A DNA stretch of 33,893 nt from Scytonema sp. RU_4_4 (GTDB lineage Bacteria > Cyanobacteriota > Cyanobacteriia > Cyanobacteriales > Nostocaceae), in contig JAAUSC010000059.1 in the NCBI GenBank assembly GCA_012031965.1, positions 1-33,893 of the forward strand, written 5' to 3'. Of this stretch, positions 1,562-29,979 are shown in pieces; positions within the stretch are counted from its first letter, which is position 1, and each line of letters opens with the position of its first letter. Made by a program: the position numbers and the translations under genes. The notes beneath the pieces are model-generated. The model saw only the letters and a program-made list of their open reading frames with translations, ran no database searches and was not told the origin of the DNA.

Positions 1562-1652
1562 GCTGAGTTTCCCTTAGTACACCAAGTATATCATTCTCCT
1601 GTGTCGTCTATTTGGATACGTGTTAAACATTCGTTAAGAGGTTTAGTCGCAT

Positions 1653-2141: not shown

Positions 2142-2308
2142 AAGCTCTCTGCTTGTCCAGAACGCTGGCGAACTGTTGGTGTAGTTAAAGCTATATCGTC
2201 AGAGGTCAAAAGTTCTGGGCAACATTTTTAACATTCCGCAGTTCATAACAGTAGTTCATAACAGTCGCTTATTTAGACTTTTTTCTAAGCAGTTTTTAGG
2301 AGCCTATT

Positions 2309-3127
2309 ATGATAAGTTCAATGACAGCTCAACAGTTAGGCATTGAGCCTTTTTTTGCATCAGCCCCAGTAGAATTGCGAGCAAACTATACCGAAGAAGA
2401 TGTCCAAACGGTGATTTGGGCAACCTACCGCCAGGTATTTGGCAATGAGCATCTGATGCAGTTGGAACGCTTAACTAGTGCGGAATCTCTACTGCGCGGG
2501 GGCGATATCACTGTTCGTGATTTTGTTCGAGCCTTGGCAATGTCAGAGTTGTATCGACAAAAGTTTTTCTATGCCACATCTCAAACTCGATTCATTGAAT
2601 TGAACTATAAGCATTTATTGGGACGTGCTCCCTATGATCAGTCTGAAATTTCTGAGCATGTCAATCTTTACATTAAGCGGGGGTACGAGGCAGAGATTAA
2701 CTCTTATCTTGATTCTCAAGAATATCAAGATCATTTTGGCGAGATGATTGTGCCTTATTATCAGGGGTTTACGACTCAAGCTGGGCAAAAAACAATTGGC
2801 TTTAACCGACTGTTTCAACTCTATCGGGGCTATGCCAATAGCGATCGCTCTCAGGGTAATACCAAGCAGGCTCGCCTTACTCAGGAACTAGCACTGAACC
2901 TTGCTACCCCAGTACGTCCCTCCACTCTTGGAGGCGAACTGAGCGGAACTATCAGTGGGGAACGAGGACAACTCTATCGCATTCGGGTGACGCAAGCGGC
3001 TAGTGGACGCACGACTCAAATTCGCCGCAGCATCAGTGAGTACCTGGTTGCTTATGAACAGTTGTCCCCCACAATGCAACGGCTCAACCAACGAGGTAGC
3101 CGCATTTTGAGCATTTCCCTCGCCTAA
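2309..3127 (+). CDS. cpcC: Phycobilisome rod linker CpcC-type
   Basis: This linker sits inside phycocyanin hexamers and joins them into rods. Two domains are visible. The N-terminal phycobilisome linker domain runs about residues 20-150 ([65 protein letters not shown]). The C-terminal CpcD-like domain covers about residues 212-270 ([12 protein letters not shown]). Length 272 aa is slightly shorter than the usual 285-290. The start follows a TTTAGGAG site, 167 bases after cpcA. Multi-operon strains call the equivalent linkers CpcH or CpcI; the sequence alone does not separate those names. Confidence 0.92.
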
Positions 3128-3198
3128 ATTCAGTCAACAGTGGAGCGTAGCGGTTCCTTTTAGGAACTACAGTTATCAGTGAACAAGCAAACCTGACA

Positions 3199-3220
3199 AC
3201 TGATAACTGATAACTGATAA
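3199..3220 (+). repeat. TGATAAC short tandem repeat tract (copy 1)
   Basis: Three head-to-tail units of ACTGATA lie between cpcC and cpcD. This is the STRR type of repeat known from heterocystous cyanobacteria. A shorter inverted match (AGTTATCAGT) sits just upstream near 3170, so the transcript could fold here. Confidence 0.85.
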
Positions 3221-3262
3221 GTAGGTCAACATTGAAAAACGTAAAATAGAGTCTTTGCGATT

Positions 3263-3360
3263 ACTTCGCTACCCTTCGGGAAGCCGCTAGCCCCTAAGGG
3301 GGCGCTGCGCAAACGCGTCTACACTGCGTTCCGTATGCCCTCCGGGCACGCTGCGCTAAC
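3263..3360 (+). repeat. Palindrome-rich dispersed repeat (copy 1)
   Basis: A GC-rich block holds consecutive small hairpins (CCCTTCGGG, GCCCCTAAGGGGGC, GCCCTCCGGGC) and ends in CACGCTGCGCTAA. The 23-base end (3337-3359) is matched with two differences at 7253-7275, and a shorter part recurs near 8318-8330. It fills most of the 327-base cpcC-cpcD gap, which otherwise holds only the two TGATAAC tracts. It probably forms strong RNA secondary structure inside the operon and may lower expression of the downstream genes. Confidence 0.75.
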
Positions 3361-3397
3361 GTAATGACATTTCACGTTTAATTAGGTTGAGCTACTT

Positions 3398-3430
3398 AAC
3401 TGATAACTGATAACTGATAACTGAGATAAC
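3398..3430 (+). repeat. TGATAAC short tandem repeat tract (copy 2)
   Basis: Four near-perfect ACTGATA units end just before the cpcD ribosome-binding site. This is the same repeat unit as at 3199-3220, 29952-30062 and, inverted, 31277-31318. Confidence 0.85.
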
Positions 3431-3454
3431 AATTATTCAGGAGATTGTAGCACC

Positions 3455-3700
3455 ATGCTTGGATTATCTTTACTCACAAAAGCGTCCAGTTCAACGACAG
3501 ATAACCGCATGTTTGTTTATGAAGTGGAGGGATTACGACAAAACGACCAAACTGAGCAAAGGAGCTATCCCATCCGCAATAGCAGCACTACCTTAATTCA
3601 GGTGCCTTTCAATCGCATGAATGAGATGATGCAGAATATCACCCGTTTGGGTGGCAAGATTGTTGCAATCCGTCCCTTAACAGGAACACCAGAGGCTTAA
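3455..3700 (+). CDS. cpcD: Small rod-capping linker CpcD
   Basis: CpcD caps the outer end of phycocyanin rods and limits their length. At 81 aa it has the usual size. FVYEVEGLRQND, the SYPIRNSSTTLIQVPFNRMN block and the ITRLGGKIVAIRPL end mark a CpcD/ferredoxin-NADP reductase linker domain. The ATG follows a CAGGAG site. It is separated from cpcC by a repeat-filled 327-base gap and from the lyase gene by a 282-base gap with a transposon-end relic. Confidence 0.94.
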   Translation: MLGLSLLTKASSSTTDNRMFVYEVEGLRQNDQTEQRSYPIRNSSTTLIQVPFNRMNEMMQNITRLGGKIVAIRPLTGTPEA

Positions 3701-3832
3701 CAATGGCGGAGGGAACCCCGTTATTGCTGATGGAGGCTGTGTAAGACCACCTACTCGTAAGGGCAAGGGGCAACGGTCAATGAAGTCGGAAGCGCACACC
3801 GTACCCGTAAGGGTCGGTGTTGGGTAGTTCAC
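3701..3832 (+). mobile_element. IS200/IS605-type right-end relic, omega-RNA-like
   Basis: A frame entered right after cpcD stays open for about 42 codons (read from 3699). It gives a basic tail (RPPTRKGKGQRSMKSEA) and stops at TAG 3825-3827, inside the end sequence GGGTAGTTCAC. Just before this is a near-perfect hairpin: ACACCG (3796-3801), a bulged T, ACCC, the GNRA-type loop GTAA, GGGT and CGGTGT (3815-3820). A tnpB C-terminus overlapping a structured RNA that ends in a GTAGTTCAC-like right end is how I remember cyanobacterial tnpB elements. No other part of tnpB is present. The assignment is by pattern memory and is uncertain; a plain structured intergenic repeat is the alternative. Confidence 0.5.
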
Positions 3833-3982
3833 ATAGTAATACTGATTGACAAAAGCACACAATTAGTTTCTAGGAAAGCAGGAACAGTCTTAAAATTGAC
3901 CATCTGAAACTGATGCAGTTGAGGCTTTATTATAAAAAATAAAGTAGGCGAGAACATCAGTCTGGAGGCTTGGACTTAATTA

Positions 3983-4636
3983 ATGGACGCAATGGAGTTT
4001 TTTCAACGGAGTGCAGGCTCTTGGCGATCGCAGCGCACAACCCATCACCTTGCTTTCAAACGATCTGAGGGTGGTGAGTCTCAAATCAAGGTAGATGCTC
4101 TAGCGGCGGATGATCCAGAAGTCATAACTTTGTGTGAATTCCACCAGATTGATGCAAGTCTGGCTGTTGGGGGTTGCAGCGTGAGCTGGGGAGGCTCAAT
4201 GGGCTGGGATCAAGAAGGCGAGAATCATGAGGGCAAAACTGTGTTTGCTCTAGTACCAGATGCGGATAATCCTCGGCAAGGTCGGTTACTTCGTGATCGG
4301 GGCTATGGCGAAATCGTACCTGTTGTCGGTCAGTACCACATGGATGATGATGATGGACTGGTTCTGATAACCGAATATGACACCATGAGTTCAATTGAGC
4401 GCTTCTGGTTTGGCAGCCCCGATTTGCGAATGCGAACCAGTACGGTGAAGCGTTTCGGCGGATTCAGCACAGCATCATTCTGCACTGAAACCCGCGTCGG
4501 GACAGATTCATTGAGCCATCCAGAAGTCAATCCGGGGGATGCTGTTATTTCGGATGTCAGCCCCACTCAAGCTCAGGAAGTGCTTCAAGCCCGACAAGAC
4601 ATCTCCAGACAATATTTCTCCTTGTTAGGTTGGTGA
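3983..4636 (+). CDS. cpcS: CpcS/CpeS-type phycobiliprotein bilin lyase
   Basis: CpcS-family lyases attach phycocyanobilin to the beta-82/84 cysteine of phycobiliproteins, with a lipocalin-like barrel holding the bilin. The 217-aa product starts MDAMEFFQRSAGSWRSQRTTHHLAF, the classic CpcS N-terminus. It continues with HEGKTVFALVPDADNPRQGRLLRD, ITEYDTMSSIERFWF and RTSTVKRFGGFSTASFC. The final part (FGSPDLRMRTSTVKRFGGFS) is strongly family-like. A GGAGG motif lies about 15 bases before the ATG. The gene lies between cpcD and cpcG, so it probably serves this phycocyanin directly. CpeS cannot be excluded by name, but no phycoerythrin genes are present. Its stop overlaps the next start. Confidence 0.9.
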   Translation: MDAMEFFQRSAGSWRSQRTTHHLAFKRSEGGESQIKVDALAADDPEVITLCEFHQIDASLAVGGCSVSWGGSMGWDQEGENHEGKTVFALVPDADNPRQGRLLRDRGYGEIVPVVGQYHMDDDDGLVLITEYDTMSSIERFWFGSPDLRMRTSTVKRFGGFSTASFCTETRVGTDSLSHPEVNPGDAVISDVSPTQAQEVLQARQDISRQYFSLLGW

Positions 4637-5238
4637 TCGATTGTCACAGCAGTGATGCATACACCCGTGGTATTGAGTATCTGCGGGTGATGCAAGGCTT
4701 TGTGCTAGACCCAGCGATGGTGGATGTGATGGAGACCCTACCCGATGCTCCCGCTCTTAGCCGTCCAAGGAGCGATGGCGCAGAGCGCCCACCACTTTGG
4801 GGCGATCGCACTATCATCTGTACTTGGATTGGCGAAAACATTCATGTGGTGAATGAAGCTCTTCGATGCTGTCTGGAAGCCTGCCATGAATGTTTTTACC
4901 CTCAAATGCGCCCCGATACCAGAATCTTTGCGGTCCCCCTAGCCCAAACATTTGGGCTAGATGGTTTATGTAATATTTCGATAACCCCAATCACAATCCT
5001 CATTGATGCAGGTCGGGTGACTCCGGAGAATTGGTTGAGTATTGTTGCCCATGAATACGTCCATGCTTATCTGGGCAGTCCTGGTCACGGTAAGGACTTT
5101 GCAGCGGTTCTCTCCCATCTTTGTCTGGGGCTAGGGCTAGAAACACCACCAGAGCAAATGGACGCGACGAGCTTACGTAGCTGGCCCCCCTACCCTTCAA
5201 TCTCAGACCCGCTGGCATTTTGGAGAGGAGTAACTTAA
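4633..5238 (+). CDS. Unrecognised protein with HExxH zincin-like motif, in phycocyanin cluster
   Basis: I do not recognise this as a named family. The GTG start at 4633 overlaps the cpcS stop as GTGA, which implies translational coupling and a shared role or shared dosage; the TTG at 4630 is less likely. The protein has about 201 aa and no signal peptide or membrane segment. Its C-terminal half holds HEYVH (about residues 140-144), then GSPGHGKDF, giving HExxH followed seven residues later by HGxxF. That resembles the zinc site of SprT/WLM-like metallopeptidases, with the second histidine region as third ligand. The middle is cysteine-rich (RCCLEACHEC). Possible roles are processing or turnover of phycobiliproteins or linkers, or a degenerate zincin fold with a structural job. 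This is inference from motif and context only. Confidence 0.8.
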   Translation: MIDCHSSDAYTRGIEYLRVMQGFVLDPAMVDVMETLPDAPALSRPRSDGAERPPLWGDRTIICTWIGENIHVVNEALRCCLEACHECFYPQMRPDTRIFAVPLAQTFGLDGLCNISITPITILIDAGRVTPENWLSIVAHEYVHAYLGSPGHGKDFAAVLSHLCLGLGLETPPEQMDATSLRSWPPYPSISDPLAFWRGVT

Positions 5239-5301
5239 GCCATACTGCGGTCTAAAGACACGCAGATTTTGGCGGAAGTTTGGGTTAGCTTTTCGTCCTT
5301 G

Positions 5302-5318
5302 GTGAACTACCTACACCG
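5302..5318 (-). mobile_element. Second IS605-like end motif, inverted relative to 3815-3832
   Basis: Read on the minus strand this is CGGTGTAGGTAGTTCAC. It matches the end of the relic at 3815-3832 (CGGTGTTGGGTAGTTCAC) except for the two or three bases in the middle. It lies in the 275-base gap before cpcG. The pair faces inward around cpcS and the HExxH gene. No transposase remains. Confidence 0.45.
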
Positions 5319-5513
5319 CTCAACTGGCAGAGTCCCCTGTTCCAAACGTGCCAAAGTGATGTAATGTCTATCAGATGGAAACCTTACAGTTTCAGCTTTT
5401 GTCCTAATGTTAAGGACTGTAATATTTTATCAGAAAGCTGAGAACTGTAGCCCGTTTTACCCTTATGATCAGGGATATTTGTAAAGTTTCCGTAAGAAGG
5501 GAGTTTTTTAAAC

Positions 5514-6266
5514 GTGGCTATTCCACTACTAGAATATGCACCTTTATCTCAGAATAATCGTGTTGCTAGCTATGAAGTTCCGGGTGATGAACAGCCCAGA
5601 ATCTTCTCAACCGACAACCTGCTTTCTGCTACTGACTTGGATAATCTTATCGAGGCAGCTTACCGCCAGATATTTTTCCATGCCTTTAAGTCTGATCGGG
5701 AACCCTTCTTAGAATCGCAGCTACGCAGTGGACAGATCACCGTGCGCGAGTTCATTCGTGGATTGTGCCTATCCAATACTTTCACCAATAGCTTTTATAA
5801 CCTCAACAGCAACTACCGCTTTGTAGAACATTGCGTTCAGAAGATTTTGGGGCGTGATGTTTACAGCGAACGAGAAAAAATTGCGTGGTCGATTGTGATA
5901 GCAACCAAGGGTCGGGCTGGGCTCATCAATGACCTGCTTAACAGTGATGAGTACATAGAGAACTTTGGTGACAGCATCGTTCCGTACCAACGTCGTCGGG
6001 TTCTGCCTTCAGGAAGTAGCGAATTGCCCTTCAACATCAAGTCTCCACGTTACGATAAATACTATCGTGCGAAACTTGGCTTCCCACAAATTGTCTGGCA
6101 AACGATTGTGCGTCGCTACACTTCACCCGACAAGCAAGCTAAGGCAGGTGATCCAACGCTGTTTGCGGGAATGGCTCAGAGTATTAATCCAGCAGGTAAT
6201 CTTCCGCAACGGATCTCACCTCAAAACATTGATTACATGAATGCAGTGCCTTATCGCCGGCGGTAA
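5514..6266 (+). CDS. cpcG: Phycobilisome rod-core linker CpcG-type
   Basis: CpcG attaches phycocyanin rods to the allophycocyanin core. Length 250 aa fits the CpcG family (about 235-280). A GTG start after an AAGGGAG site gives [30 protein letters not shown], the typical CpcG N-terminus. The linker domain spans about residues 25-180 ([75 protein letters not shown]). The C-terminal part ([20 protein letters not shown]) has no CpcD domain, as expected, and no hydrophobic tail of the CpcL type, so it is a core linker rather than a membrane-anchored one. It ends the phycocyanin cluster, and no second cpcG copy follows. Confidence 0.93.
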
Positions 6267-6549: not shown

Positions 6550-6575
6550 AAAAACCTCGGTGAAACCAACCGAGG
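6550..6575 (-). terminator. Rho-independent terminator of the psb34-like gene
   Basis: A perfect 7-bp stem, CCTCGGT (6555-6561) with ACCGAGG (6569-6575), and a 7-base loop are followed on the minus strand by TTTTT (6554-6550). It lies 58 bases past the stop of the psb34-like gene. Confidence 0.85.
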
Positions 6576-6632
6576 CGAGGAGAGGAAGCTCAACTGACGA
6601 TTACAGATACCAATAGCGAGAAGAAGAAAATC

Positions 6633-6803
6633 TTAGCTAACACCTAAGGCAACAAAAACAAGAGCAGTCACAAAAAGCAGTGCAACTGCGCCACCGAAAG
6701 CATAGCGGCGCTGCTGTTGAGTGCTGGGGTAGTTAGCATGGTACATTTGAGGTTCTATTGCGTAGTTATTGAGAATGCCGTCTTCATTAACAGTGGTGTA
6801 CAT
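6633..6803 (-). CDS. psb34: Psb34-like small membrane protein (ssl1498 / HLIP-like family)
   Basis: This 56-aa gene is too short for usual length cut-offs. The start is MYTTVNEDGILNNYAIEPQM, then PSTQQQRRYAFGGAVALLF and one hydrophobic helix at about residues 35-54. The combination of an N-terminal G-x-LNNYAxEP motif and one C-terminal membrane helix matches the ssl1498 family. Its Synechocystis and Thermosynechococcus members (Psb34) bind CP47 during photosystem II assembly and compete with high-light-inducible proteins. It is monocistronic: repeats lie upstream and a clean terminator downstream. It faces away from both the cpc cluster and hetI. The assignment rests on motif memory. Confidence 0.78.
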   Translation of the reverse strand: MYTTVNEDGILNNYAIEPQMYHANYPSTQQQRRYAFGGAVALLFVTALVFVALGVS

Positions 6804-8786: not shown

Positions 8787-10304
8787 CTATGCAACCTTCA
8801 AGAAACCGCTTGAAATCAAGTAAGAAGAGTATGTCATCAACAATTTCGAGTCTATTGGTGGACAAACAATAGAGCTTCCAGCAAGTGCCTTAAGCGTCTC
8901 TTGACAGCTGATGGTTGGTCTTTTAGCTTGCAGGTACAAATCTGGAATAGTGAGTCCTTCTTGAGACCACTTCTCAAGCAAGAATGGTCGCAGTGTGTAT
9001 AAAGGATTTTGCTGTGAAGTGACGTTTTTGATTAACATTGTTTGCCACTCATCGTATGGAATCAATTGAATTGGAAAACCAAAAGAGTGCATCCAGTCAA
9101 CTAACATCTTTAGGGAGATTGGTTCAGGATGTTGCAAGTGGAAAGCTTTGCCTATGGATTCTTTCTGTCTTGAGAGATAGGCGATCGCCTGACTCACATA
9201 GTCCACAGGAGACATATCCAGCATATAGTCCACATCTGGAAGACATCCCATCTCAAGACAACCCTTCATCATTAGGTTGGTAAAATCATGGGTGTTAGAC
9301 ACACCTGTTTGACTATGCCCTGATATTAATGGTGGTCTGTGGATGGTAACGGGAAGTCCGCGATCGCCTGCAATTTTCACTAACTTTTCAGCAACCCACT
9401 TCGTCTGAGAGTAACCAAGATAAATCCCTTCCCAATGATTAAAGTCATCCTGTTCCTTAACGACTTTGCCAGCATAAACTGGTGATTCAAAAACAGCAAC
9501 ACTGGAAACGTAATGTAGAGGTTTGGCTTTAATTGCGCTTGCCAAACGTATCACTTCCTGAGTTCCCAGAACATTAGCAGTTTTTAGTGCTGAGTAAGGA
9601 TAGACATAATTCAACATAGCAGCACTGTGATACACAGCGTCAAGATTAGCTGCTAGCATTTCAAACCCTTCAGTGCTGATACCTAGGTAAGGCTGAGATA
9701 AATCTCCAGGAATAGCGATAATTCTGGGGCTGAACTCTTCTTTCCAAAGTAAATATTGTTGCAAATTTTTCTTCAGCTTTTGCTTACCTTCTTCAGAAGT
9801 CGCAGCACGTACTAAGCAGTAGATATCTGCATGAGTTGTCCGTAGTAATTCATCGATAAGGAAAGCTCCTAAAAAGCCTGTTCCTCCAGTTAAGAAAACA
9901 TTATTTAGTGTACTGGTAAATTGATAACTCGATGAGGGACGGATGTTCGAGTCTAAAACAGCTTCTGCACTCAAATCTAGCGTTGTCGTCTTGAAAGCAG
10001 AAAGATTTGTTCGAGGGATAACTCTGTCTTCAACTTGTGACTCTAAATCTTGCGATTCTTCGGCTAAACGCTCTGAAAGAGCTTCGATGTTTGGGTAGTG
10101 CCATAGCAGCATCACAGAGACTTCAAATCCCAGCATTTTCTCTGCTTTGGTAACTAGAAGCATGGCTTGGGCTGAGTTCAAACCGTAGTTCTCTAATGAA
10201 TCTTGTACATTGATTTCATCGGGTGCGATTTTTAGTGCATCAGCAAGAATGGATACTAGGCATGCTTGAATTTCTTCTGCTGTATAAGACTGTTTTGAAG
10301 CCAT
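8787..10304 (-). CDS. hglB: HglB/HetM: acyl carrier protein-thioester reductase
   Basis: This last enzyme of the aglycone line is thought to accept the finished acyl chain and release it reductively, giving the fatty aldehyde or alcohol backbone. The ACP domain covers about residues 8-82, with phosphopantetheine Ser44 in GLNSAQA. A linker follows, then a thioester-reductase domain of the NAD(P)-binding SDR type from about residue 135. It shows GGTGFLG (140-146), the DLSQPYLG block (about 201-208), YVSSVAVF and the catalytic YSQTK (Tyr298, Lys302). Length 505 aa equals the 506-aa HetM of Anabaena. The ATG follows an AGAGGTG site. It is the 3'-most gene of the minus-strand cluster, 58 bases after hglA. 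Confidence 0.92.
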
Positions 10305-18848: not shown

Positions 18849-19010
18849 GGGAGCATCCCACTTTGGAAAAAATACCTGGCGATTAGAAATCGCAGCTACA
18901 CAAACCAAGTCCGCCTGCGCGGACTTAATATATAGCCTGCGCAGGCAGGCTTTGTTTGTCTAGCCCCAGACTTACAGTCTGCGGGCGATTTGCCAAAACG
19001 GGATGCTCCC
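18849..19010. repeat. MITE-like inverted-repeat element overlapping hglG 3' end
   Basis: The ends are exact inverted repeats: GGGAGCATCCC (18849-18859) and GGGATGCTCCC (19000-19010), and homology extends to TTTTGG inside each. Inside are stems AAGTCCGCCTGCGCGGACTT and AGCCTGCGCAGGCAGGCT. A related element with the same end lies at 32393-32516. It supplies the stop codon and last residues of the neighbouring gene. Confidence 0.75.
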
Positions 19011-19557
19011 CATTTTTTTTAGAAAAAACTGATGAATGTAAAACTTCAAAAACTGATTTTCTGGAGATAGTCAATGATTTTTGAAGATTAATGGGAGTGT
19101 CTGGTGTTTCTTGAGGCGGTATTTCTTGAGGCGGAGGCAAAGTTAGTGCCGCTACAATCAAAGCTAATACTATCATGATAGCTGCTACTAATGTTAGTAA
19201 GTTCTGATTATTCTCATGATTTTCTGTCTCTTGAAAATGAGGAGAAACAAGTTGAATATCACCAAGGTCTCTTTGATCATAAAATAGTCTAATGAAGGAA
19301 TAGTATGTTTTGTAGCCTTTGGCTTCTATCGTTATTTCTCCTTCAAGAACATTGCTATCCCCAAATGGGACTTGAAATTTATAAATTCCTTCCAAGTCAC
19401 TATAGACAACGCGTGAATAACCTGGCAAATTAATTAAGATTTTAGCTCCACTTATAGGAGCTTGTTTCTCTCTATCGAGAACGCGACCAAGATAATGAAT
19501 TTCTTGATGATTAGGCATAGTTTCAGCTGATACCATTTCTTTGTGAGGCTGCACCAA
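18925..19557 (-). CDS. Membrane-anchored carboxypeptidase-regulatory-like domain protein (hglG position)
   Basis: The product has 210 aa. Residues about 21-105 form a small beta-sandwich of the carboxypeptidase regulatory/PEGA-like kind (LGRVLDREKQAPISGAKILI, YSDLEGIYKFQVPFG, EITIEAKGYKTYY). One strong membrane helix follows (about 119-140, LLTLVAAIMIVLALIVAALTL), then a proline-rich segment. There is no enzyme motif. It lies between the two genes holding the halves of a ketoreductase, so it may anchor the soluble synthase at the membrane (inference). In Anabaena order this position is hglG. The last 28 or so residues are encoded inside a repeat element, so the natural C-terminus may differ. 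I do not know its function. Confidence 0.8.
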   Translation of the reverse strand: MVQPHKEMVSAETMPNHQEIHYLGRVLDREKQAPISGAKILINLPGYSRVVYSDLEGIYKFQVPFGDSNVLEGEITIEAKGYKTYYSFIRLFYDQRDLGDIQLVSPHFQETENHENNQNLLTLVAAIMIVLALIVAALTLPPPQEIPPQETPDTPINLQKSLTISRKSVFEVLHSSVFSKKNGEHPVLANRPQTVSLGLDKQSLPAQAIY

Positions 19558-19744: not shown

Positions 19745-21985
19745 TTAAACTTCGGGAGTACTAATCAGGGTGACTCGTCCCTGTGAACTGTAAGCAACTT
19801 CGGTAATATAACGATTGGGGTCGTGTAGCTCAGCAACAATGTGTCGTGCTGACTCTTCTGCATCAATGTGAGGACTCAAGTCAATTGCTCGGCAAAATAC
19901 TTGTTCCCATTCCCAGTTGAGAGTCTTCGTTAATCCAAATAAACCAGCACTAATAGGACCAAAGTTCTCATTTTGTCCTAACCCAAAGGCTCCATCAAGA
20001 CGAGTCACAGTGCAAAAACAACTACGTCCATGATGTGTGGCTTGATTGAGGAATTTTTTCAGGTGTTTCGCCATCAGAAAAACGTGCTTGACTATTGCCT
20101 TTTCCTCTTCAAGATAGGGAATTTTGCCATTGCAGGTGACTTCAAATAAAGGATTTAGATGAATGAAAGCACCAATCGGACCATATTGAGTGGAGATGGT
20201 GGCTAATTGTTGTTGGAGATGTTCTTCACTTAAATCAGCGAGATTAACACGAATGATCCCTGGGGGTAAAGGTGAGTGTTGTGGAACGAGTGATTGGGGG
20301 AAACTGAGAACAACGATTTTCCAGCCTTGCTCAGTGAGAAGTTGAGCCAATTTGGAAGTGGTGAGGGAGCCATCATCGGTAAGTAAACCGATGTGTCCCT
20401 CTGGTAAGGTGAAATCTAGAAAATCTGGTTGAGGCAGAATTTTCAGTTTGACTTGACGACGCAAGGTAGTGTTGTTTAAGTTACCTGATGGGTTGGAGGG
20501 CTTGTTCAGAGACTTTTTTTTTTCCGTACCAGCTAACTTCTGCAAATACTCTACTATTTGACCGATAGTACGCAGTTCTCCCAGTTCTTCTACATTCGGC
20601 TTGGGTAAGTTGGGGTACATCTGTTGCATTGTCCCCAAAATTTCCACACGCTTGATGGAGTCAATCCCCAAGTCTGCTTCCATATCCATGCTCAAATCCA
20701 GCATCTCTACTGGGTAACCTGTTTTTTCGCTCGTGATTGCTAACAAGGTTTGACCGAGATCTGTCAAATCTGTGTCTGCTGTTTGAGCTTCTTCACTTGC
20801 TGAGACACTTTCGTTAACTAGTTCGTTAACTAGTTCGTTAACTAGGATGGGGGAAGAGATGGGAAGTTGAGGTGTTTGCGTCGTGTCTGTGAGGATGACG
20901 GAAGAATTTTCGGTCTTCACTTCCTCTTGTATTCTTACGTCTTCTTGTATGGAAATCGCAGTTTCTACAGCAATAGATTGAACAGTAATTGGAGAAGCAC
21001 TAGATTGCAGATATTCGACAATTTGACCGATGGTGCGTAGTTCTCCCAGTTCTTCCAGATTTGGTTTAGGCAAGTCTGGGTACATTTCCTGCATTGTTCC
21101 CAAGATTTCCACACGTTTAATGGAGTCAATACCTAAGTCTGCCTCCATATCCATGCTCAAATCTAACATTTCTACTGGGTAGCCTGTTTTGTCACTGATG
21201 ATTGCTAACAGGTTTTTATCCAAATCAGTTAAATCAGTTTTAGGTGTTGAGTCTTGGGTTTTGAGTGTATTTTCTTTTTCGTACTCAGAAATCTGAACTT
21301 GCAATGCTGGACTTTCTTGAACGACAGGTGAGGATGAAAACACAGGTGAGGATGAAAAGAACTGGGGAGTCGGAGATGGGTCTGTAATAATCTGTGTTTG
21401 AGTGCTAACTTCTACAACTGAATGCAATTGTGCATCCATTTTATTGACTATGGGCTGTTCTTCAGTTGTTGGTATCTGGGGAGTGGGAGGAACTGGGCTG
21501 TCTTGTTTAGTTGTTGTTGTATCTAAAGCAATGAGACGTTCAGGTTTTTTATTTGCGGCTGTTGTTTCGTCAAGGGAAACCACAGGTTGAGTTATTGCCA
21601 GTTTACTACTGACAAGCTGTGAGTATTCTTGCTGTATGAGTTGGAAAAAGTTTTTGGTGTATTCTACCTGAGTGTTGAGATATTGCTCGTGAACGCGTAG
21701 AGTTTCACCTTGTTGAGCGTGAAACTGCATCATACTACGCTCTAAGCTTTCCGTGAGAACTGGCTTGAGCTTTGCAGCTTCGTCTGAAAGTTTGCTGTTA
21801 GCAAACAAAGAATTCTGCTGTTGCATCAGTTGGAAAAAGGTTTTAGCATATTCCATCTGATGGTTGAGATAGTGTCCGTGAACTTGTAAACTCTCGCTTT
21901 GATTTTGCTGAAATTGTGTCAGGACGTATTCTAAGCTTGCTAAAACTTGTTGGTCATTTACGGGTGTATCTGGATTGGTTTGCAT
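19745..21985 (-). CDS. hglF: HglF: tandem acyl carrier proteins with ketoreductase structural half
   Basis: This is the carrier subunit of the glycolipid synthase. Two related N-terminal helical segments (about 15-60 and 80-125) have the pattern E-(S/T)-L-x-V-H-x-x-Y-L-N. Two nearly identical ACPs follow, with phosphopantetheine Ser288 and Ser443 in LGIDSIKR, 155 residues apart, joined by low-complexity linkers. From about residue 512 comes an SDR-like domain (HIGLLTDDGS, GAFIHLNPLFE, FCTVTRLDGAFGLGQNENFG, FGLTKTLNWEWEQVFCRAIDLSP, ELHDPNRYITEVAY). This is the non-catalytic first half of a PfaA-type ketoreductase; the catalytic half starts HglD. The ATG lies 28 bases inside the end of hglE. 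The name follows Anabaena order. Confidence 0.88.
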   Translation of the reverse strand: MQTNPDTPVNDQQVLASLEYVLTQFQQNQSESLQVHGHYLNHQMEYAKTFFQLMQQQNSLFANSKLSDEAAKLKPVLTESLERSMMQFHAQQGETLRVHEQYLNTQVEYTKNFFQLIQQEYSQLVSSKLAITQPVVSLDETTAANKKPERLIALDTTTTKQDSPVPPTPQIPTTEEQPIVNKMDAQLHSVVEVSTQTQIITDPSPTPQFFSSSPVFSSSPVVQESPALQVQISEYEKENTLKTQDSTPKTDLTDLDKNLLAIISDKTGYPVEMLDLSMDMEADLGIDSIKRVEILGTMQEMYPDLPKPNLEELGELRTIGQIVEYLQSSASPITVQSIAVETAISIQEDVRIQEEVKTENSSVILTDTTQTPQLPISSPILVNELVNELVNESVSASEEAQTADTDLTDLGQTLLAITSEKTGYPVEMLDLSMDMEADLGIDSIKRVEILGTMQQMYPNLPKPNVEELGELRTIGQIVEYLQKLAGTEKKKSLNKPSNPSGNLNNTTLRRQVKLKILPQPDFLDFTLPEGHIGLLTDDGSLTTSKLAQLLTEQGWKIVVLSFPQSLVPQHSPLPPGIIRVNLADLSEEHLQQQLATISTQYGPIGAFIHLNPLFEVTCNGKIPYLEEEKAIVKHVFLMAKHLKKFLNQATHHGRSCFCTVTRLDGAFGLGQNENFGPISAGLFGLTKTLNWEWEQVFCRAIDLSPHIDAEESARHIVAELHDPNRYITEVAYSSQGRVTLISTPEV
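20810..20845 (-). repeat. Three perfect 12-bp tandem repeats inside hglF
   Basis: TTCGTTAACTAG is repeated three times without change. On the coding strand it gives the repeating tetrapeptide LVNE in the linker between the two ACPs. Its length is a multiple of three, so copy-number change would alter linker length without breaking the frame. Confidence 0.9.
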
Positions 21986-24900
21986 TGTCGGCTGTGGAAT
22001 GGGTTGAGATGAAGAAAGAGGAGTGGGGGAGTGGGGGGAGGGGGGGAGTGGGGGATGGAGGTGGAGAGGGAATTTGTCCCCTTGTCCCCTAGTCCCCTAG
22101 TCTCCTTGTCCCCTTGTCCCCTTATCTCCTTGTCCTCAATTTTTTGGTTTATAGGGAGTAGGGATTTATTTGTGTGCCCGTTAGTCTCTGCAACTGTTAC
22201 TGTGGGAGTGGCGCTGATGGTGGTGAGTGTCGCGGAGAATGATTTAGAGTCAATATGAGCGTTATTCTTAGATGTGCTTTCAGATGTGCTTTCAGACATG
22301 CTTGCAGGTAATTTCACTTTATGTCCATCCTGCAAAGCTTGCTCAAATGCCATTTTTGTTTTTTCTGATACGTAGTTGATACCATTTAAACGCACGCTCA
22401 ATCCCTTGCTTTTCTCGGTTGCGGGTATGGTTTGTGGGAGTTGGTAGGGGTCGAGGTTTTTCAAGGGACTTCCAGCGACGCGTAACTGGACGACGGCTTC
22501 TCTTAGAGAGCGATCGCTATCTTTTTGGCTGCTAGGGTTCAAAGCGATAGTTAGGTGAGGGCGATCGCCTAAAATATCTTTCACCAAACCTGTGAGAATT
22601 TTCTTCGGACCAAACTCAACAAAGCAAGAACCACCCTCCGCATAAATATTTTCAATTTCCTGCTTAAACAGCACCGCATTAGAAAGGTGAGTTTCTAGAA
22701 TTCTTTGAATATCTGTAGCTTCCTTGGGGTACTGTTTTCCTGTCACATTTGTGTAAACAGGTATTTTCGGATTTTGGAAACTGATACTCTTGATAGCTTG
22801 AGCAAAAGCTTTCTGAGCAAAAGCAATCAATTGTGTATGGAAAGCTGCTGACACAGGTAACAAAACGGCTGCATATCCTTGCTCTTGTAGAGTTTGCCGT
22901 ACTTTCGCTATTTCCGCCGCAGGTCCAGCCAACACCACTTGACGGGGAGAATTGAGATTCGCAATTGTCACCTGAGGAAAATGCTTGAGAACTGCTTCCA
23001 CCTTGCCAACTTCTTCTTTCACAGCAAGCATAGCCCCTGCATCATAATCGGGATCTTGGGGAGCCGCCATTGCTTGACCCCTAGCTTTCACCAAAAAGCA
23101 GTAATCTTCTTCACTCAAAACACCCGCAGCCCACAAAGCTGTGAGTTCTCCAAAGCTGTGTCCTGCAACGAAATCTGCCTTAAATCCAGCTTGTTGCAGT
23201 ATTTTATATAGCCCTGCACTCAACATCCCAATTGCTGGTTGAGCATATTCTGTACGCTGTAATGCAACAATTTGAGCATTTTTTTCCACTTCCTCAAACA
23301 CGGGATGGGGAAAAACGATTTCCGACAGCGACTGCAAATTATCTTTCAGCAAAAGGCTATCCATGTAGCCGAAAAGACGCCGCAGGGTTGGAAAATTCAT
23401 CACCAGTTCCCGACCCATCTCCAAATATTGAGAACCTTGTCCAGAGAACAAAGCAACAACTTTTCCAGCCAACTCAAGACCACAAGAGCGGTAGTAAATT
23501 CCTTGGGGATGCTCCCATGAGGAGTCTCTTGCTCTGCTTTTGAGTAACTCAATAGTGGTTTGTAACAATTTACAAGCTTCAACACAAGAAGCTGTAACAA
23601 ACCCGACTCTAGCTGCATTCAGGGGAATGTCTTTTGATTTAGACTCCTCCACAAGCTCCACATAATTTTTGTTACCTTCCTCAGATTGCAACTTCCCTAA
23701 AATCTCTTCACAGTTTGCGAGTAACTGTGCAGGAGTTTGAGCAAACAGCAATACTTCATTGGGAGTATTGTGTATCCGATAAGCGTGTTCTTGTTCGGCT
23801 TCGTATTCTTCCAAGACAACGTGATAGTTTGTTCCACCAAAGCCAAAAGAACTGATACCCGCACGTCTTGGCGCTTCCCCTTCTGGACGAATCCAAGGTC
23901 TAGTTTCGGTATTTAGGTAAAACGCCGAGTTTTGGATATTGAGTTTGGGGTTGGGTTGAGTAACGTTAATTGTGGGCGGTAGTATCTTATGATGTAGCGC
24001 TAAAGCAGTTTTGATTAAGCTTGCAGCACCTGCAGCAGCTTTTGTATGTCCGATTTGAGATTTCACACTACCAAGTGCAATGTACTGCTTGTGTGATTTT
24101 TCCCCAAAAAATTCTCTTAGAGACGCAAATTCTGTGGGGTCACCAGCCATCGTACCTGTACCATGCGCCTCCATTAAGGTGACAGTTTCAGGTGAAAAGC
24201 CTGCATCCTCGTAAGCACGCTGTAAGGCTTTAACTTGTCCTTCTTGTCGGGGAGCATAAATGCTTTTATATCGTCCATCGCTGGAGGTTCCAATTCCTTT
24301 AATAACTGCGTAAATTTTATCGTTGTCTCGTATAGCGTCATCTAAGCGCTTAAGGACAACCATACCGACACCTTCACCCAGCATCATCCCGTCTGACTTT
24401 GCGTCGAAGGGTTTAACATTGTCGCTAGGAGAGACAGCAGGTGTTTTGCTGAAACACATGTAAGCCATGATGGTGTTGTCAGTATCAACTCCACCAGTTA
24501 GCATCATGTCGCAACGATGCTCAATGAGTTCGCTAATTGCCATTTTTAGAGCAGCTAATGAACTGGCACAAGCAGCATCAACAACGCAGTTTATTCCGCC
24601 TAAATTTAAGCGGTTGGCAATTCTCCCAGCAACGACGTTACCTAACATACCTGGGAAGGCATTTTCATCCCAGTGTACGTAAGCGCTTTTAATTTTCTTG
24701 ATAATTTTTTGCGTATCCTCATCGGATAAACCACTACTTTTAAGAACCTTTTCCCAAACGGGATACTGTAACCTAGAGGCGAGTGGTAATCCCAATTGAC
24801 TTCCTGCTACACCTAAAATAACCCCAATAGTCTCGCGATTAAACTCGCCAGATGTGTCATAACCTGCATCTTCCATCGCCTCTTTTGCAACTACCAAACT

Positions 24901-25323
24901 TAATAGTTGCGCCACATCTGTCACTTCCAAGATGCTAGGGGGAATCCCAAATTCCATTGGGTTAAAATCAACGTATGGGATAAATCCACCTCTTTTACAG
25001 TAGGTTTTTTCCTCTGGTGTTCTAGGATTAGGGTCATAGTATTCTTCTATATTCCAGTGTGTTGATGGAACATCAGTAATTCCGTCAATTTTATGAATAA
25101 TATTTTGCCAATACTCTCGTAAATTTCTAGATTTTGCAAAAAGAGAAGCCATACCAATGATGGCTATAGGATGATGTTGTAAGTTTCTATTAATTTTGTT
25201 AACTGATAAGGATTGACCAGACATGATTTTCTTCTCCTCAATAAACCTATACACAGACTTTTCAATGTTGTTTATCTGGGCTTCCAATTCCGCCAAGGCA
25301 GTATCAATTGAATAAGCAGACAT
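21958..25323 (-). CDS. hglE: HglE: ketosynthase-acyltransferase of heterocyst glycolipid synthase
   Basis: HglE starts and extends the polyketide chain. It has 1121 aa. A short coiled segment (1-45) resembles a docking element. The ketosynthase spans about 50-510, with Cys252 in DAACASS, His387 in EAHGTGT and His426 in IGHTKAA. A malonyl-type acyltransferase covers about 620-930, with FSGQGSQY, Ser723 in GHSFGE and AAFH (His829). The last 120 or so residues are low complexity and probably not a domain; part is encoded by a G/C-run repeat. The ATG follows CGGAG. It leads the large minus-strand cluster, 222 bases after a small conserved gene, and overlaps hglF by 28 bases. KS-AT matches the front of PUFA-synthase PfaA and the remembered hglE of Nostoc. 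Confidence 0.9.
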   Translation of the reverse strand: MSAYSIDTALAELEAQINNIEKSVYRFIEEKKIMSGQSLSVNKINRNLQHHPIAIIGMASLFAKSRNLREYWQNIIHKIDGITDVPSTHWNIEEYYDPNPRTPEEKTYCKRGGFIPYVDFNPMEFGIPPSILEVTDVAQLLSLVVAKEAMEDAGYDTSGEFNRETIGVILGVAGSQLGLPLASRLQYPVWEKVLKSSGLSDEDTQKIIKKIKSAYVHWDENAFPGMLGNVVAGRIANRLNLGGINCVVDAACASSLAALKMAISELIEHRCDMMLTGGVDTDNTIMAYMCFSKTPAVSPSDNVKPFDAKSDGMMLGEGVGMVVLKRLDDAIRDNDKIYAVIKGIGTSSDGRYKSIYAPRQEGQVKALQRAYEDAGFSPETVTLMEAHGTGTMAGDPTEFASLREFFGEKSHKQYIALGSVKSQIGHTKAAAGAASLIKTALALHHKILPPTINVTQPNPKLNIQNSAFYLNTETRPWIRPEGEAPRRAGISSFGFGGTNYHVVLEEYEAEQEHAYRIHNTPNEVLLFAQTPAQLLANCEEILGKLQSEEGNKNYVELVEESKSKDIPLNAARVGFVTASCVEACKLLQTTIELLKSRARDSSWEHPQGIYYRSCGLELAGKVVALFSGQGSQYLEMGRELVMNFPTLRRLFGYMDSLLLKDNLQSLSEIVFPHPVFEEVEKNAQIVALQRTEYAQPAIGMLSAGLYKILQQAGFKADFVAGHSFGELTALWAAGVLSEEDYCFLVKARGQAMAAPQDPDYDAGAMLAVKEEVGKVEAVLKHFPQVTIANLNSPRQVVLAGPAAEIAKVRQTLQEQGYAAVLLPVSAAFHTQLIAFAQKAFAQAIKSISFQNPKIPVYTNVTGKQYPKEATDIQRILETHLSNAVLFKQEIENIYAEGGSCFVEFGPKKILTGLVKDILGDRPHLTIALNPSSQKDSDRSLREAVVQLRVAGSPLKNLDPYQLPQTIPATEKSKGLSVRLNGINYVSEKTKMAFEQALQDGHKVKLPASMSESTSESTSKNNAHIDSKSFSATLTTISATPTVTVAETNGHTNKSLLPINQKIEDKEIRGQGDKETRGLGDKGTNSLSTSIPHSPPPPTPPLLFLHLNPFHSRQCKPIQIHP
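22021..22136. repeat. Low-complexity G/C-run and TTGTCCCC tandem block at hglE-hglF junction
   Basis: Runs of six (22033-22038) and seven (22040-22046) G sit beside degenerate tandem copies of TTGTCCCC/TAGTCCCC (22074-22135). Such blocks are usually intergenic in filamentous cyanobacteria, but here hglE reads through it. Homopolymer runs of this length slip easily. Confidence 0.8.
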
Positions 25324-25544: not shown

Positions 25545-25832
25545 CTATACAATGCCTGACTCCTCATGTTGTGGTAGTAGATCAATGACATTATTGAAAC
25601 TTGTAAAATAATCCTGCAGTGCGTTAGCTGCTGGACCAGTAAATTCCATCCATTCAGAAGACAAGTTATTCTGAGGATTCTGAGAAATTGTTTCCTTCTG
25701 AGACAATGAAAACTTGGGAGTAGCTATGAGGACAGAAACGCTTTTTTCTCCAGAGCTAGTTTGATGATTGAGTTTAACTGCGGCAACGTAGCTGGTGTTA
25801 ATGACAACGTTCTGTATCTTGATAAATGCCAT
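25545..25832 (-). CDS. Small conserved protein upstream of hglE, unknown function
   Basis: The 95-aa product starts MAFIKIQNVVINTSYVAAVKLN. I prefer the ATG at 25832 over the one at 25847 (which would add MLKLI) because MAFIKIQN resembles starts of small proteins I recall from Nostocales; neither has a good ribosome-binding site. The end reads WMEFTGPAANALQDYFTSFNNVIDLLP. The predicted pattern is short beta strands (residues 1-45) and a C-terminal helix, as in small single-domain proteins that bind a partner. In Anabaena a similarly sized gene lies ahead of hglE, so it probably belongs to the cluster. It is co-oriented with hglE, 222 bases ahead. I assign no function. Confidence 0.7.
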   Translation of the reverse strand: MAFIKIQNVVINTSYVAAVKLNHQTSSGEKSVSVLIATPKFSLSQKETISQNPQNNLSSEWMEFTGPAANALQDYFTSFNNVIDLLPQHEESGIV

Positions 25833-25847
25833 GATCAATTTCAACAT

Positions 25848-26424
25848 TCAAGATAATATATTCTATGGATTGTGACAAACAAAGTTTGACAAATCCGTTA
25901 CCGAAAAAACACCCCTCTCAACCCGAATTAATAAAAAAATGAACGAATAATTGAATTATCACCAAGTGATAGCAAGCAGATTATTTTTCGTTTTTCACTT
26001 GTCATTAACCCAATAACATGCCTGACTATCTAGAAATATGATAATTAATAAAAACACTAGCATAAATGATGGAAATTAAATGGTTCGTTTTTAGCAATTT
26101 TATAAAAAAATAGATTTTTTGCAGGTATAAACTTTTTTTTAAATAAAAAAGTATAGATGTTTACTATTGTTTAGCGTCTTGTCAAGTTCTTGATTAGGGT
26201 TGTCAGATAATATTTTTTCTCATCAAAAAATAAGTATATTTCTTTGTAAATTCACACCTATTTAACAAATACATACACTAACAGAATAGATATCAGTGTG
26301 TTTTTGAAAAAAACATGATAATTACAGTCGTTTTCAATTGTGTAGAACACAGGTGGGCTGTTGTAGAGTGCCCACCCTACGTTTGTTGAGAATAGTGCAA
26401 AATCTGAGCAAACCAAGTTTATAG
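25848..26424. other. AT-rich non-coding gap between hglE region and ParB-like gene
   Basis: These 577 bases hold no credible gene. Base composition is strongly AT with A- and T-runs. A GGTGGGC (26352-26358) / GCCCACC (26370-26376) hairpin lies past the stop of the ParB-like gene but lacks a U-run. The promoter of the hgl operon could lie in the upper part near 25850-26000. Confidence 0.5.
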
Positions 26425-27783
26425 TTAAGATGATCCTGTTTTTTCTGCTTGCTTTCCAGTCCACTCTTGCCACCGAATGATTCCGCGACTGACCAATTCT
26501 GGATTCTCACCTCCAATAAAACAGGTACGTCCCATCCTTTCACAAGCAATCAGGATTTCACTATGTCCTATAAATGGAGCAATGACAAAATTATTTGGAT
26601 TTGTATACATATTTAGTAAGTAAGCGACTATTCCCTCAACTCCTTCTACATGAATTGGTATCTGTGGCTTGGATATTGACTGGCGCGAAAAAATACCTAC
26701 ATATAAATTGCCAAGTACTAATTCGTATTGAAATGGCATCCGAGTGCGACTACAAAAGTTATAAATGTTGCCCTCGGAGCGTACTACAGCAACAATTCGA
26801 GCTTCATCTACTAAGTAATCATGATTCCAGCTTGGGGAAAGTGTAGCAATAGCTAGAGCTGCATTGCCAGGAAGCAAGTGCATGAATTGTTTACTAGCAG
26901 TATCTCCACAATAAACAAGATGCTGTTGATTGAGCATCCATTCGTCACCAACATTAACCCAAGGCTTCTTACCTTGGACAACAGTTGGTTTTCCTACTTG
27001 ATGCTGTTCAACCAGAGGCTGAGTTTTCTTTGCGGCTAACTTAGCTTCTCTCTTTGCCATAGCAATTCTAAAGGCTTGCAACTGTAACTCTTGCTGCCTA
27101 AGCCGCCATTGCTCGGCTATTTTACCTTGCTGTTGGGCTTCTTGTTCGTCTCTTTTAACCTGAGCTAATTCCAGAGCCTGTTCCGCCTGTTCTGCTAAGG
27201 CGCGTTCTTTATTCCCCGCTCTAGCTATCTTGAGCAGTTCCGTTTTTATATCGGCTATAGGCGTACCTTTGATTTTTTGTTTGACTTCTTGGTGAATATC
27301 TTTGGCTATCTGCTTATCGTGCTGCAAGCTACGCTCACTGTATCCAACTTCTTTGGCAAACTCTAAATTCGTCTTGGGAGGTGGTGAAATCATTTCACGA
27401 CCTTTGAGGGTATGCTGGTTATCCCCTGCTTTCGCCATGAGTCCGAATCTGTCCAAAATTTTCTGGCGTTCCAATAGCATTTCTGCTCGCTCTAGAGGTT
27501 TTAACTCATTGCGGATAAAATTCTCGTCAATCTCCGCCAAACGAGCTTGATCAGCATCCTCGTAATCAACAACATTACACTCGATTTTTTCTACACCAAG
27601 TAGCCGACAAGCCGTAAGACGGTGTAGCCCAGCAATCAAGTTCAGTTTTCGGTCTATTGTGATCGGGTTCAATAGACCATTTACCTGAATTGATTCTTTC
27701 AACTCCTCAACCTTGTCACCGTTGATGGGACGGCGGTTATGACCTATTTTAATTTGGTCTATGGATACTGACTTTATAGGCAT
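26425..27783 (-). CDS. ParB-domain protein with degenerate DNA methyltransferase C-terminus
   Basis: The protein has 452 aa. Residues 1-100 are a ParB/Srx-like nuclease domain: SVSIDQIKIGHNRR, LIAGLHRLTACRLLGVEKI (GLHR 52-55), ENFIRNELKPLERAEML. Residues about 105-180 are the helix-turn-helix-like part (FAKEVGYSERSLQHD), then a long charged coiled region to about 255. Residues 275-446 follow the layout of phage-type ParB-methyltransferase fusions: VGDEWMLNQQHLVYCGDTA, and at the end LIACERMGRTCFIGGENPELV and IIRWQEWTGKQAEK. The catalytic motifs are lost: the DPPY site reads LSPSW (315-319) and the DPFxGSG SAM loop reads APFIGHS (402-408). It is likely an inactive methyltransferase kept as a DNA-binding or regulatory protein. 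It stands alone between two glycolipid gene groups. Confidence 0.8.
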   Translation of the reverse strand: MPIKSVSIDQIKIGHNRRPINGDKVEELKESIQVNGLLNPITIDRKLNLIAGLHRLTACRLLGVEKIECNVVDYEDADQARLAEIDENFIRNELKPLERAEMLLERQKILDRFGLMAKAGDNQHTLKGREMISPPPKTNLEFAKEVGYSERSLQHDKQIAKDIHQEVKQKIKGTPIADIKTELLKIARAGNKERALAEQAEQALELAQVKRDEQEAQQQGKIAEQWRLRQQELQLQAFRIAMAKREAKLAAKKTQPLVEQHQVGKPTVVQGKKPWVNVGDEWMLNQQHLVYCGDTASKQFMHLLPGNAALAIATLSPSWNHDYLVDEARIVAVVRSEGNIYNFCSRTRMPFQYELVLGNLYVGIFSRQSISKPQIPIHVEGVEGIVAYLLNMYTNPNNFVIAPFIGHSEILIACERMGRTCFIGGENPELVSRGIIRWQEWTGKQAEKTGSS

Positions 27784-28752: not shown

Positions 28753-29979
28753 ATGGCAGCAGAAAAAGAAAGCCAATTATACACAAAACCCTCGAATCGG
28801 TGGCAAATTATATTAGCAGCTCTTATTGCTTCAGCTACCGGACTCCTCTTTTTTCATAATTTTTCACGAAGATCTAACCTTCACACTCAGGTAGTAAAAG
28901 CTCCAGAAGCAGTTCCAACAAAGGTTGATAGAGTTGCTGTGACTGCGTTAGGACGTTTGCAGCCTCAAGGTGAAGTGACGAAGTTATTTGCTCCCAGCTC
29001 ACTCTCTGGCGTCCGAGTTGAAAAAATGTTTCCTAAAGAAGGAGATAAGGTTCGTGCTGGACAGGTTCTAGCTTTATTGGAAGGTTATGCTCGCAGTAAA
29101 GCAGCTTTACAACAAGCTTTAGACAAAGTTCAAGTCGCGCAAGCTCAACTCGCACAAGTGAAAGCTGGAGCAAAATCAGGAGACATAGAAGCTCAAAAAG
29201 CGGCGATCGCCCGCTTAGGATCACAATTAACAGGAGAAGCGGCGGCTAAGCAAGCGACAGTGACTCGCTTGGAGGCTGAGTTAGAAAATGCTCAAACCGA
29301 AAACAATCGATACCAGCAACTTTATAAAGAAGGTGTCATTTCTGCTTCTGTTGCAGATAGCAAGCGTTTGCAACAACAGACAGTGCAACAGCAACTAACA
29401 GAAGCCAAGGCAAACCTTGACAGTTCTGTCAACACTATAAACGACCAGATCGAAGAGGCAAAAGCTAAATTAGGGAGTATCAAAGAAGTACGTGTTGTTG
29501 ATGTTAAGTTGGCAGAAACTGAAGTTCAGAGTGCGATGACTGCTGTCCAACAAGCAAAAGCAGATTATGATTTAACATACCTCAAATCTCCCATAGATGG
29601 AAGAATTTTAAAAATTCACGCCAAAACAGGAGAAGTGAACAGTAACGAAGGAATTGTTGAGGTAGGCAAAACATCTCAAATGTATGTGGTGGCGGAAATT
29701 TATCAAACTGATATTGGCAAAGTCCGTATCGGTCAAAAAGCGACCATCACCAGCACTGCATTTCCCAAAAAAATAAAAGGAACCGTAAGTAAAATTGGTT
29801 TGCAAGTTGACAGACAAAATATCCTCAGTGTCAATCCAGCCGCAGACACAGACCGTAGAATTATTCAGGTAAAAATCCGTATTGATGATCCAGCGGATAG
29901 TCAAAAGGTCGCAGGTTTAACCAACTTACAAGTGGATGTTGCTATTCACATTCAGTCAACAGTACACAGTAATCAGTGA
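28753..29979 (+). CDS. hgdB: HgdB: DevB-type membrane fusion protein of an ABC exporter
   Basis: HlyD/DevB-like periplasmic adaptors link an inner-membrane ABC permease to an outer-membrane channel; in heterocysts this machinery exports glycolipids. Length 408 aa. One N-terminal membrane helix (about 18-36) is followed by the DevB start VTALGRLQPQGEVTKLFAPSS and a lipoyl-like half (VEKMFPKEGDKVRAGQVLALLEG). A long alpha-hairpin spans about 110-245, then the second lipoyl half (YDLTYLKSPIDGRILKIHAKTGEV), and the beta-barrel region ends VDVAIHIQS. The last ten codons lie in a repeat. hgdC follows after 100 bases. In Anabaena hgdB-hgdC-hgdA sits near the hgl genes, and I recall it as needed for the glycolipid layer. 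Confidence 0.87.
   Translation: MAAEKESQLYTKPSNRWQIILAALIASATGLLFFHNFSRRSNLHTQVVKAPEAVPTKVDRVAVTALGRLQPQGEVTKLFAPSSLSGVRVEKMFPKEGDKVRAGQVLALLEGYARSKAALQQALDKVQVAQAQLAQVKAGAKSGDIEAQKAAIARLGSQLTGEAAAKQATVTRLEAELENAQTENNRYQQLYKEGVISASVADSKRLQQQTVQQQLTEAKANLDSSVNTINDQIEEAKAKLGSIKEVRVVDVKLAETEVQSAMTAVQQAKADYDLTYLKSPIDGRILKIHAKTGEVNSNEGIVEVGKTSQMYVVAEIYQTDIGKVRIGQKATITSTAFPKKIKGTVSKIGLQVDRQNILSVNPAADTDRRIIQVKIRIDDPADSQKVAGLTNLQVDVAIHIQSTVHSNQ

Follow-up and report, generated by a model that had tools for sequence, protein, structure and literature searches.

The locus examined here raises the question of why a gene that joins a ParB fold to a methyltransferase without its catalytic motifs should stay intact beside the glycolipid (hgl) genes of a cyanobacterium. 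The window, i.e., the whole stretch of DNA analyzed (33,893 nucleotides of Scytonema sp. RU_4_4, contig JAAUSC010000059.1), contains an uninterrupted frame of 452 codons at 26425–27783, as an earlier note on this DNA had described; the strand is minus, and the plus-strand frame at that position is full of stops. The 452-residue protein (P0001) begins with a ParB-fold domain (residues 3–113; 27445..27777), delimited by Pfam and invariant residues, in which lie a GxxR sequence, G52-L-H-R55 (27619-27630), and ENFIR at residues 87 to 91 (27511-27525). A predicted HTH region (residues 137–190; 27214..27375) is assigned from predicted helices by analogy with ParB, with no domain match, and is followed in the predicted structure by a long helical linker (residues 191–253; 27025..27213). 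The chain ends in a pseudo-methyltransferase domain, defined by Foldseek and alignment (residues 279–447; 26443..26949), that contains LSPSW (residues 315–319; 26827-26841) and APFIGHS (residues 402–408; 26560-26580); all of these features are on the minus strand. ParB_N scored above its Pfam cut-off (31.4 versus 26.3 bits, E 1.9e-7, residues 4–85), N6_N4_Mtase fell below its own (E 0.0032, residues 386–426), and the phage ParB profile phrog_3264 (PHROG) spanned residues 3 to 231. In Foldseek searches with an AlphaFold2 model (47 sequences; pLDDT 83.6, pTM 0.49), the N-terminal half matched Noc and ParB, the best being Noc (7nfu, 8.5e-9), and also a C-terminally truncated RK2 repressor structure, presumably that of KorB, while the C-terminal part matched MboIIA (1g60, 3.6e-8), M.HpyAVI (5hfj, 1.1e-7), and CcrM (6pbd, 9.6e-7). 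Whole-query TM values were low (~0.2–0.3) because each match spans part of the protein. The model places the C terminus in the beta-class DNA-methyltransferase fold, and the linker is a possible candidate for a dimerizing coiled coil.

Two viral proteins from IMG/VR (L187 and L188) share this domain order and have both DPPY and DPFxGSG intact, and P0001 is 27% and 26% identical to them over residues 6–438 and 5–445, respectively; both motifs were present in six viral ORFs. This shared order, together with the phrog_3264 match, bears out the phage-type plan that the earlier note had proposed. On alignment with L187 and L188, a stretch of ~10 residues holding DPPY (motif IV) is deleted from the cyanobacterial proteins, and LSPSW of P0001 aligns to the segment that follows it. 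A stretch with GRKP, which lies ahead of motif I in the viral proteins and which we take to be motif X, is also missing, and motif I is altered, reading APFMGxGE in the cyanobacterial proteins where L187 and L188 have DPFxGSG. Thus, the statement that DPPY had become LSPSW was right as to the absence of DPPY but not as a residue-for-residue change; that of DPFxGSG having become APFIGHS is correct for the Scytonema window, where S408 is a minority state in a family that mostly carries APFMG[H/N]GE (position 408 is G in 73, A in five, and S in three of 81 sequences). Neither [DNS]PP[YFW] nor D[PA]FxGxG occurs in the domain in any of those 81 sequences (the window and the best 80 of 142 homologous loci). 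The same set is identical throughout at W319, H321, Y323, M349, E354, R437, and W438, which leaves W319-x-H321-x-Y323 invariant in the pseudo-methyltransferase domain, as well as at G52, H54, R55, E87, N88, and R91 in the ParB fold; in a larger set of 89, W319 and Y323 were identical in all and H321 in 88. Since the motif loss is common to 81 of 81 sequences and other residues are invariant, the loss is shared, and a different residue set is now guarded. Judged from these alignments, the METHYLTRANSFERASE looks dead in all homologues examined. The proposal of a ParB fused to a dead methyltransferase is upheld.

Homologues were collected by tblastn on genome contigs (E <= 1e-3), giving 142 loci, of which the best 80 were kept as named loci. 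All 80 were full-length and uninterrupted (435–469 aa including the window protein), the closest named relative among the loci kept being from Brasilonema sp. UFV-L1 (91%), which points to a heterocystous host. The median dN/dS over the whole gene was 0.126 (Nei-Gojobori, 28 pairs from eight close sequences, namely the window and L031–L037), with values of 0.102 for the ParB part, 0.192 for the helix, and 0.117 for the methyltransferase part (28 pairs), and the lowest, 0.068, for the HTH block (residues 111–200). The earlier note had favored selection over decay, and the decay test ran against decay, a reading already at odds with the data for lineages retaining the gene; across these alignments, the predicted pseudo-methyltransferase fold is retained under purifying selection, with invariant residues of its own. 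Of 388 genomes from the order, 39 had the gene: 27 from the window's family, six from f18, four from f20, and two from f8. The species behind these counts are not independent. A scan of 386 genomes across the phylum gave 22 with a match at E <= 1e-15, comprising 16 of the P0001 family, all inside the order, and six with a match to the N-terminal part only. Genome searches for the gene and for hglT may contain misses because only four and five first-look candidates were scored per genome. No match covering 80% of P0001 was found in 50,697 phage records (0 of 47 matching) or 72,556 plasmid records (0 of 67 matching). In a midpoint-rooted tree, a rooting that does not show a phage-to-host direction, the P0001 family formed one clade (100/100) to which phage rows were joined by long branches. 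Heterocystous hgl copies stood apart from ATPase, f20, and Chroococcidiopsidaceae copies (99/99), the last of which include hgl-linked ones. Vertical descent apparently accounts for the retention of the gene in heterocystous cyanobacteria and some of their relatives.

In the window, the P0001 gene is located between an hgdB-like membrane fusion protein gene (28753..29979, plus strand; Pfam HlyD families, named by position), which is divergent from it, and an hglE-like ketosynthase/acyltransferase gene (21958..25323, minus strand; Pfam), the first large gene of the hgl row beyond the partner gene described below. These flanks agree with the earlier placement beside a glycolipid locus; the name hglE-like derives from position and from the available portion of PMC11804610. 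Among the best 80 of 142 loci, hgl genes were beside the ParB gene in 71, with the hgdB-like gene divergent upstream in 67 and the hglE-like gene downstream in 65. At eight of the nine non-hgl loci in this set, the neighbors are a pair of P-type ATPases and an FGE-sulfatase protein, joined in five of the eight by an MntP-like gene; the ninth, L097, lies on a contig of 4.7 kb. The ATPase setting recurs in two f8 genomes (L147 and L148). The neighbors in f20 are an AMP-binding ligase, which we read as being of the fatty-acyl type, and a protein that weakly matches sigma-70 region 4; a HlyD protein was near the gene on the two contigs reaching far enough (L140 and L142). In all four gene-bearing f20 genomes, the dead domain is also encoded a second time on its own, in one case on a different contig. 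As a side observation, the stand-alone domain is 180 to 184 aa long and lies 3 to 4 kb from the full-length gene at L140:9491-10033 and L142:5352-5906. Pfam scans of 22 of the 35 window ORFs of >= 80 aa detected no ParA family.

Within the window's family, the ParB gene was carried by 14 of 42 hglT-positive genomes (hglT called at E <= 1e-90, by which some gene-positive genomes are missed). Of the 28 without it, 13 keep the partner or a relic and 15 have neither; the gene is therefore dispensable for glycolipid making or hgl expression. In L155, a relic of the ParB gene is found at the syntenic position (9329-9394) next to an intact partner and probably reflects a recent loss; no significant relic was found in 13 other gene-less genomes with the same island. 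Two other features of the window were recorded in passing. The hgl row includes, at 18925-19557 (minus strand), a gene for a carboxypeptidase-regulatory-like protein (sub-threshold Pfam match) that was detected in a subset of the relatives; such a gene is also in the hgl cluster of HT-58-2, as given in the accessible part of PMC8073705. At 6550-6634 (minus strand), adjoining phycobilisome-related genes (71-6266), Rfam detected PsrR1 (photosynthesis regulatory RNA1; 43.2 versus a gathering score of 42), its single match across the six sources searched.

Beyond the earlier note, the ParB gene was found to have a 100-aa partner gene (P0002; 25545..25847, minus strand) and a second setting, the P-type ATPase locus. 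The start common to relatives of P0002 is Met6, giving 25545-25832. P0002 had no family in Pfam, PHROG, NCBIfam, PADLOC, or PDB sequences, and its predicted fold (pLDDT 69.8) had no significant PDB match (best E 0.27). Viral contigs gave 15 pattern matches, none confirmed by tblastn, and plasmids gave no confirmed relative. The partner is downstream of the ParB gene in 71 of the best 80 of 142 loci, in five of these (L043, L056, L059, L066, and L078) at 6.7–7.9 kb instead of the usual 0.3–1.5 kb. The nine loci without it include four with <2.8 kb after the gene (L033, L044, L084, and L097), one with 6.3 kb (L060), and four Calothrix loci (L087 and L089–L091) in which 10 kb of sequence after the gene holds no partner; three of these four Calothrix records hold a second gene copy with a partner (L099, L105, and L095). 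The partner was present at all eight ATPase loci, and the gene-partner pair survives a change of genomic setting. Among the 388 genomes of the order, the partner was present in 38 of 39 ParB-positive genomes, G370 having the ParB gene alone, versus 14 of 349 ParB-negative ones. In the latter 14, it was broken early in nine, altered after NNVID in two (L290 and L294), and intact in three, with four kinds of lesion; independent partner-loss events are few because most partner-losing genomes belong to one genus (g7). At gene-positive loci, it was intact in 80 ORFs (76 by pattern, three by reading [NNVTD/NNVLD], and that of L031 from its Met), and an extra copy in the ParB-positive G237 carries a stop. 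In the accessible part of PMC10287535, the hglE operon of PCC 7120 begins with asr5350, and by its position P0002 would be the orthologue of asr5350.

Upstream of the partner is a conserved non-coding block, GTAAC...TTTGTCAAA...TATATTATC (25849..25902, minus strand), which probably serves as the hgl operon promoter. Tandem TTTGTCAAA boxes at this place were rejected as a ParB operator, as the decay predicted after ParB loss was not seen: L155 was the one ParB-less genome of 14 to have lost TTGTCAA, which the other 13 keep, and the second TTTGTCAAA box was variable even among ParB-positive loci. Retention of the promoter block in ParB-less genomes thus leaves no demonstrated ParB site. At ATPase loci, the DNA upstream of the partner contains a 37-bp element, ATTAGTN4ACTAA...GTTANGAA, which was recovered in two left-out members, L095 and L110, the latter near-identical to L102, a training row of the model. 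As a general operator, this element was rejected because it is confined to the ATPase set; hgl and f20 loci were mostly within the null, with the best scores in L074 and L081 (p ~0.007 among 40 sequences, on the other strand). In L099, L150, and relatives, the element is ~180–320 bp upstream of the partner and is followed by an apparent stem and T-run that by eye is attenuator-like. A common 'ATGGCATTTA' was discarded as a shared element, being the partner's own start codon. The NtcA pattern GTAN8TAC exceeded a first-order null that ignores relatedness, the DIF pattern showed no excess over the null, and no operator common to the genomic settings was found among the conserved upstream elements of hgl, ATPase, and f20 loci. 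A role in DNA reading or regulation, as put forward in the earlier note, is favored by the constraint on the HTH block and by gene position, but no binding site was found.

Phage fusions of a ParB fold to N6_N4 methyltransferases, represented by L187 and L188 and covered in the available part of PMC12704722, resemble P0001 in having the ParB fold, an HTH region, and a beta-class methyltransferase in one chain; there, ParB folds of phages are often fused to N6_N4 methyltransferases, and such fusions reportedly occur more often in phages. They differ in that the catalytic motifs are intact in L187 and L188 and deleted or altered in the P0001 family, in that they are on viral contigs whereas the P0001 family is chromosomal, at hgl or ATPase loci, and in that no viral contig has a confirmed relative of the partner. 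With VirB, KorB, Noc, and DndB, P0001 has in common a ParB fold with GxxR outside a parAB operon and, for the first three, an HTH region (predicted in P0001). In contrast to these proteins, it has GLHR for GERR, and a dead methyltransferase where a C-terminal dimerization domain would be expected. Compared with canonical ParB of ParABS systems, ParB_N is present but GERR box II, found in the ParB, Noc, and Spo0J alignment rows, is not, and the window has no adjacent ParA. Gene order around P0001 is of the same kind as in the hgl island of heterocystous cyanobacteria, and alr5348, asr5349, and asr5350 are among the genes that vary between hgl islands, according to the accessible sections of PMC11804610. 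The term 'ParB' was not found in the main text of that paper, nor in the available part of the description of the hgl cluster of HT-58-2 (PMC8073705), a strain that has the gene (L036). Searches under ParB, heterocyst glycolipid, hglE, and dead-methyltransferase regulators, in a literature from which most subscription journals were outside reach, returned nothing on the P0001 family among the papers listed, in line with the undescribed job that had been suggested for the gene. Papers pairing ParB with heterocyst glycolipid concern, in their accessible portions, other ParB proteins, and no paper connecting phage ParB-methyltransferase fusions with cyanobacteria was found in the literature searched.

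Several other explanations may be weighed against regulation. That the gene is a decaying phage remnant is scarcely credible: some genomes do have the same island without the gene (L155 shows a relic, 13 others no significant one), but the best 80 of 142 homologues are all intact, dN/dS is low, and the catalytic losses are common to all. A leftover of a mobile element, selfish or addiction-like, in which gene and partner form a two-gene maintenance module, would account for the phage-type architecture and for decay of the partner once the ParB gene is lost, like an unneeded antitoxin. Such a module is improbable, as no partner relative was confirmed on viral contigs or plasmids, the positions are fixed inside metabolic loci over many genera, and living lineages have lost the ParB gene. 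We regard anti-restriction or defense, with the protein acting as a decoy reader of methylation sites, as very improbable. PADLOC type II methyltransferase profiles do hit residues 385 to 448 (E 7e-21), but these matches reflect fold only; dN/dS is low, unlike the fast change expected from an arms race, and the Pfam scans of the 22 window ORFs revealed no restriction or defense family. The corresponding suggestion of the earlier note is thus left with the methyltransferase fold, against the lack of any 80%-covering match in phage or plasmid records.

The protein might instead still be an enzyme, with relocated catalytic residues (e.g., W-x-H-x-Y) acting on DNA, RNA, or protein. The near-complete invariance of W319, H321, and Y323 is consistent with this, but deletion of the motif X and motif IV segments and alteration of motif I make cofactor binding doubtful, and we find a surviving enzyme improbable as well. 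A DNA anchor resembling Noc, which would attach to DNA close to exporter operons and, together with the partner, tether the locus to the membrane or nucleoid without transcription control, is unlikely, if somewhat easier to entertain. Noc is the top N-terminal structural match, the NCBIfam profile nucleoid_noc was matched at 2.7e-15 (far below the family cut-off), and a transporter gene is near the gene in each setting (HlyD-type hgdB, P-type ATPases, and the HlyD protein in L140 and L142); transporter genes, however, are common neighbors anyway.

The explanation that we favor, with a probability of about 0.5, is that P0001 is a domesticated, inactivated ParB-methyltransferase that binds DNA and, jointly with its partner, acts as a local regulator, perhaps switched by NTP. 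Its chemistry is lost but the gene is intact beside hgl genes, usually with the partner, and it is therefore probably a DNA-bound regulator. The ancestor would be a relative of phage-type ParB-(N6/N4)methyltransferases, domesticated in cyanobacteria. The HTH region would bind DNA near its own locus, the ParB fold with invariant GxxR and ENxxR may serve as a nucleotide-gated clamp, and the dead methyltransferase domain may be a binding or dimerization module. Protein and small partner would then tune the adjoining operon, which is hgl here and a P-type ATPase/FGE or HlyD/AMP-ligase locus elsewhere. We are surer of the local DNA-bound regulator than of the clamp. As described in the accessible part of PMC12704722, GxxR is the P motif, in which an R-to-A change abolishes nucleotide binding; 11 of 28 purified ParB-fold proteins bound nucleotide and 17 of 28 did not; SAM-methyltransferase fusions of the ParB fold bound ATP, with no N6/N4 fusion named among the binders; and VirB, KorB, BisD, and DndB are ParB-fold gene regulators. 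The f20 neighbor with a weak sigma-70 region 4 match counts in favor of the regulator, while GLHR in place of GERR, glycolipid makers without the gene, and the lack of a gene-linked operator count against it. A more specific proposal, which we advance tentatively and consider possible rather than probable, is that an old two-gene module, consisting of a phage-type ParB-methyltransferase with its catalytic loops cut out and the 100-aa protein, persists at exporter or envelope loci of three kinds. In the hgl setting, such a module would modulate the glycolipid operon by means of the nucleotide-gated clamp of the ParB fold, the dead domain and the 100-aa protein serving as effector.

If this is true, the module would have been overlooked if the usual model strain, like many g7 genomes here, is without a working copy. 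The locus brings forward a hitherto unstudied pair of genes in the hgl island as a candidate regulator and offers a natural test of the joint role of a ParB fold and a dead methyltransferase, in a fusion that was disarmed by deletion and then conserved over many genera at a locus central to the differentiation of nitrogen-fixing cells.
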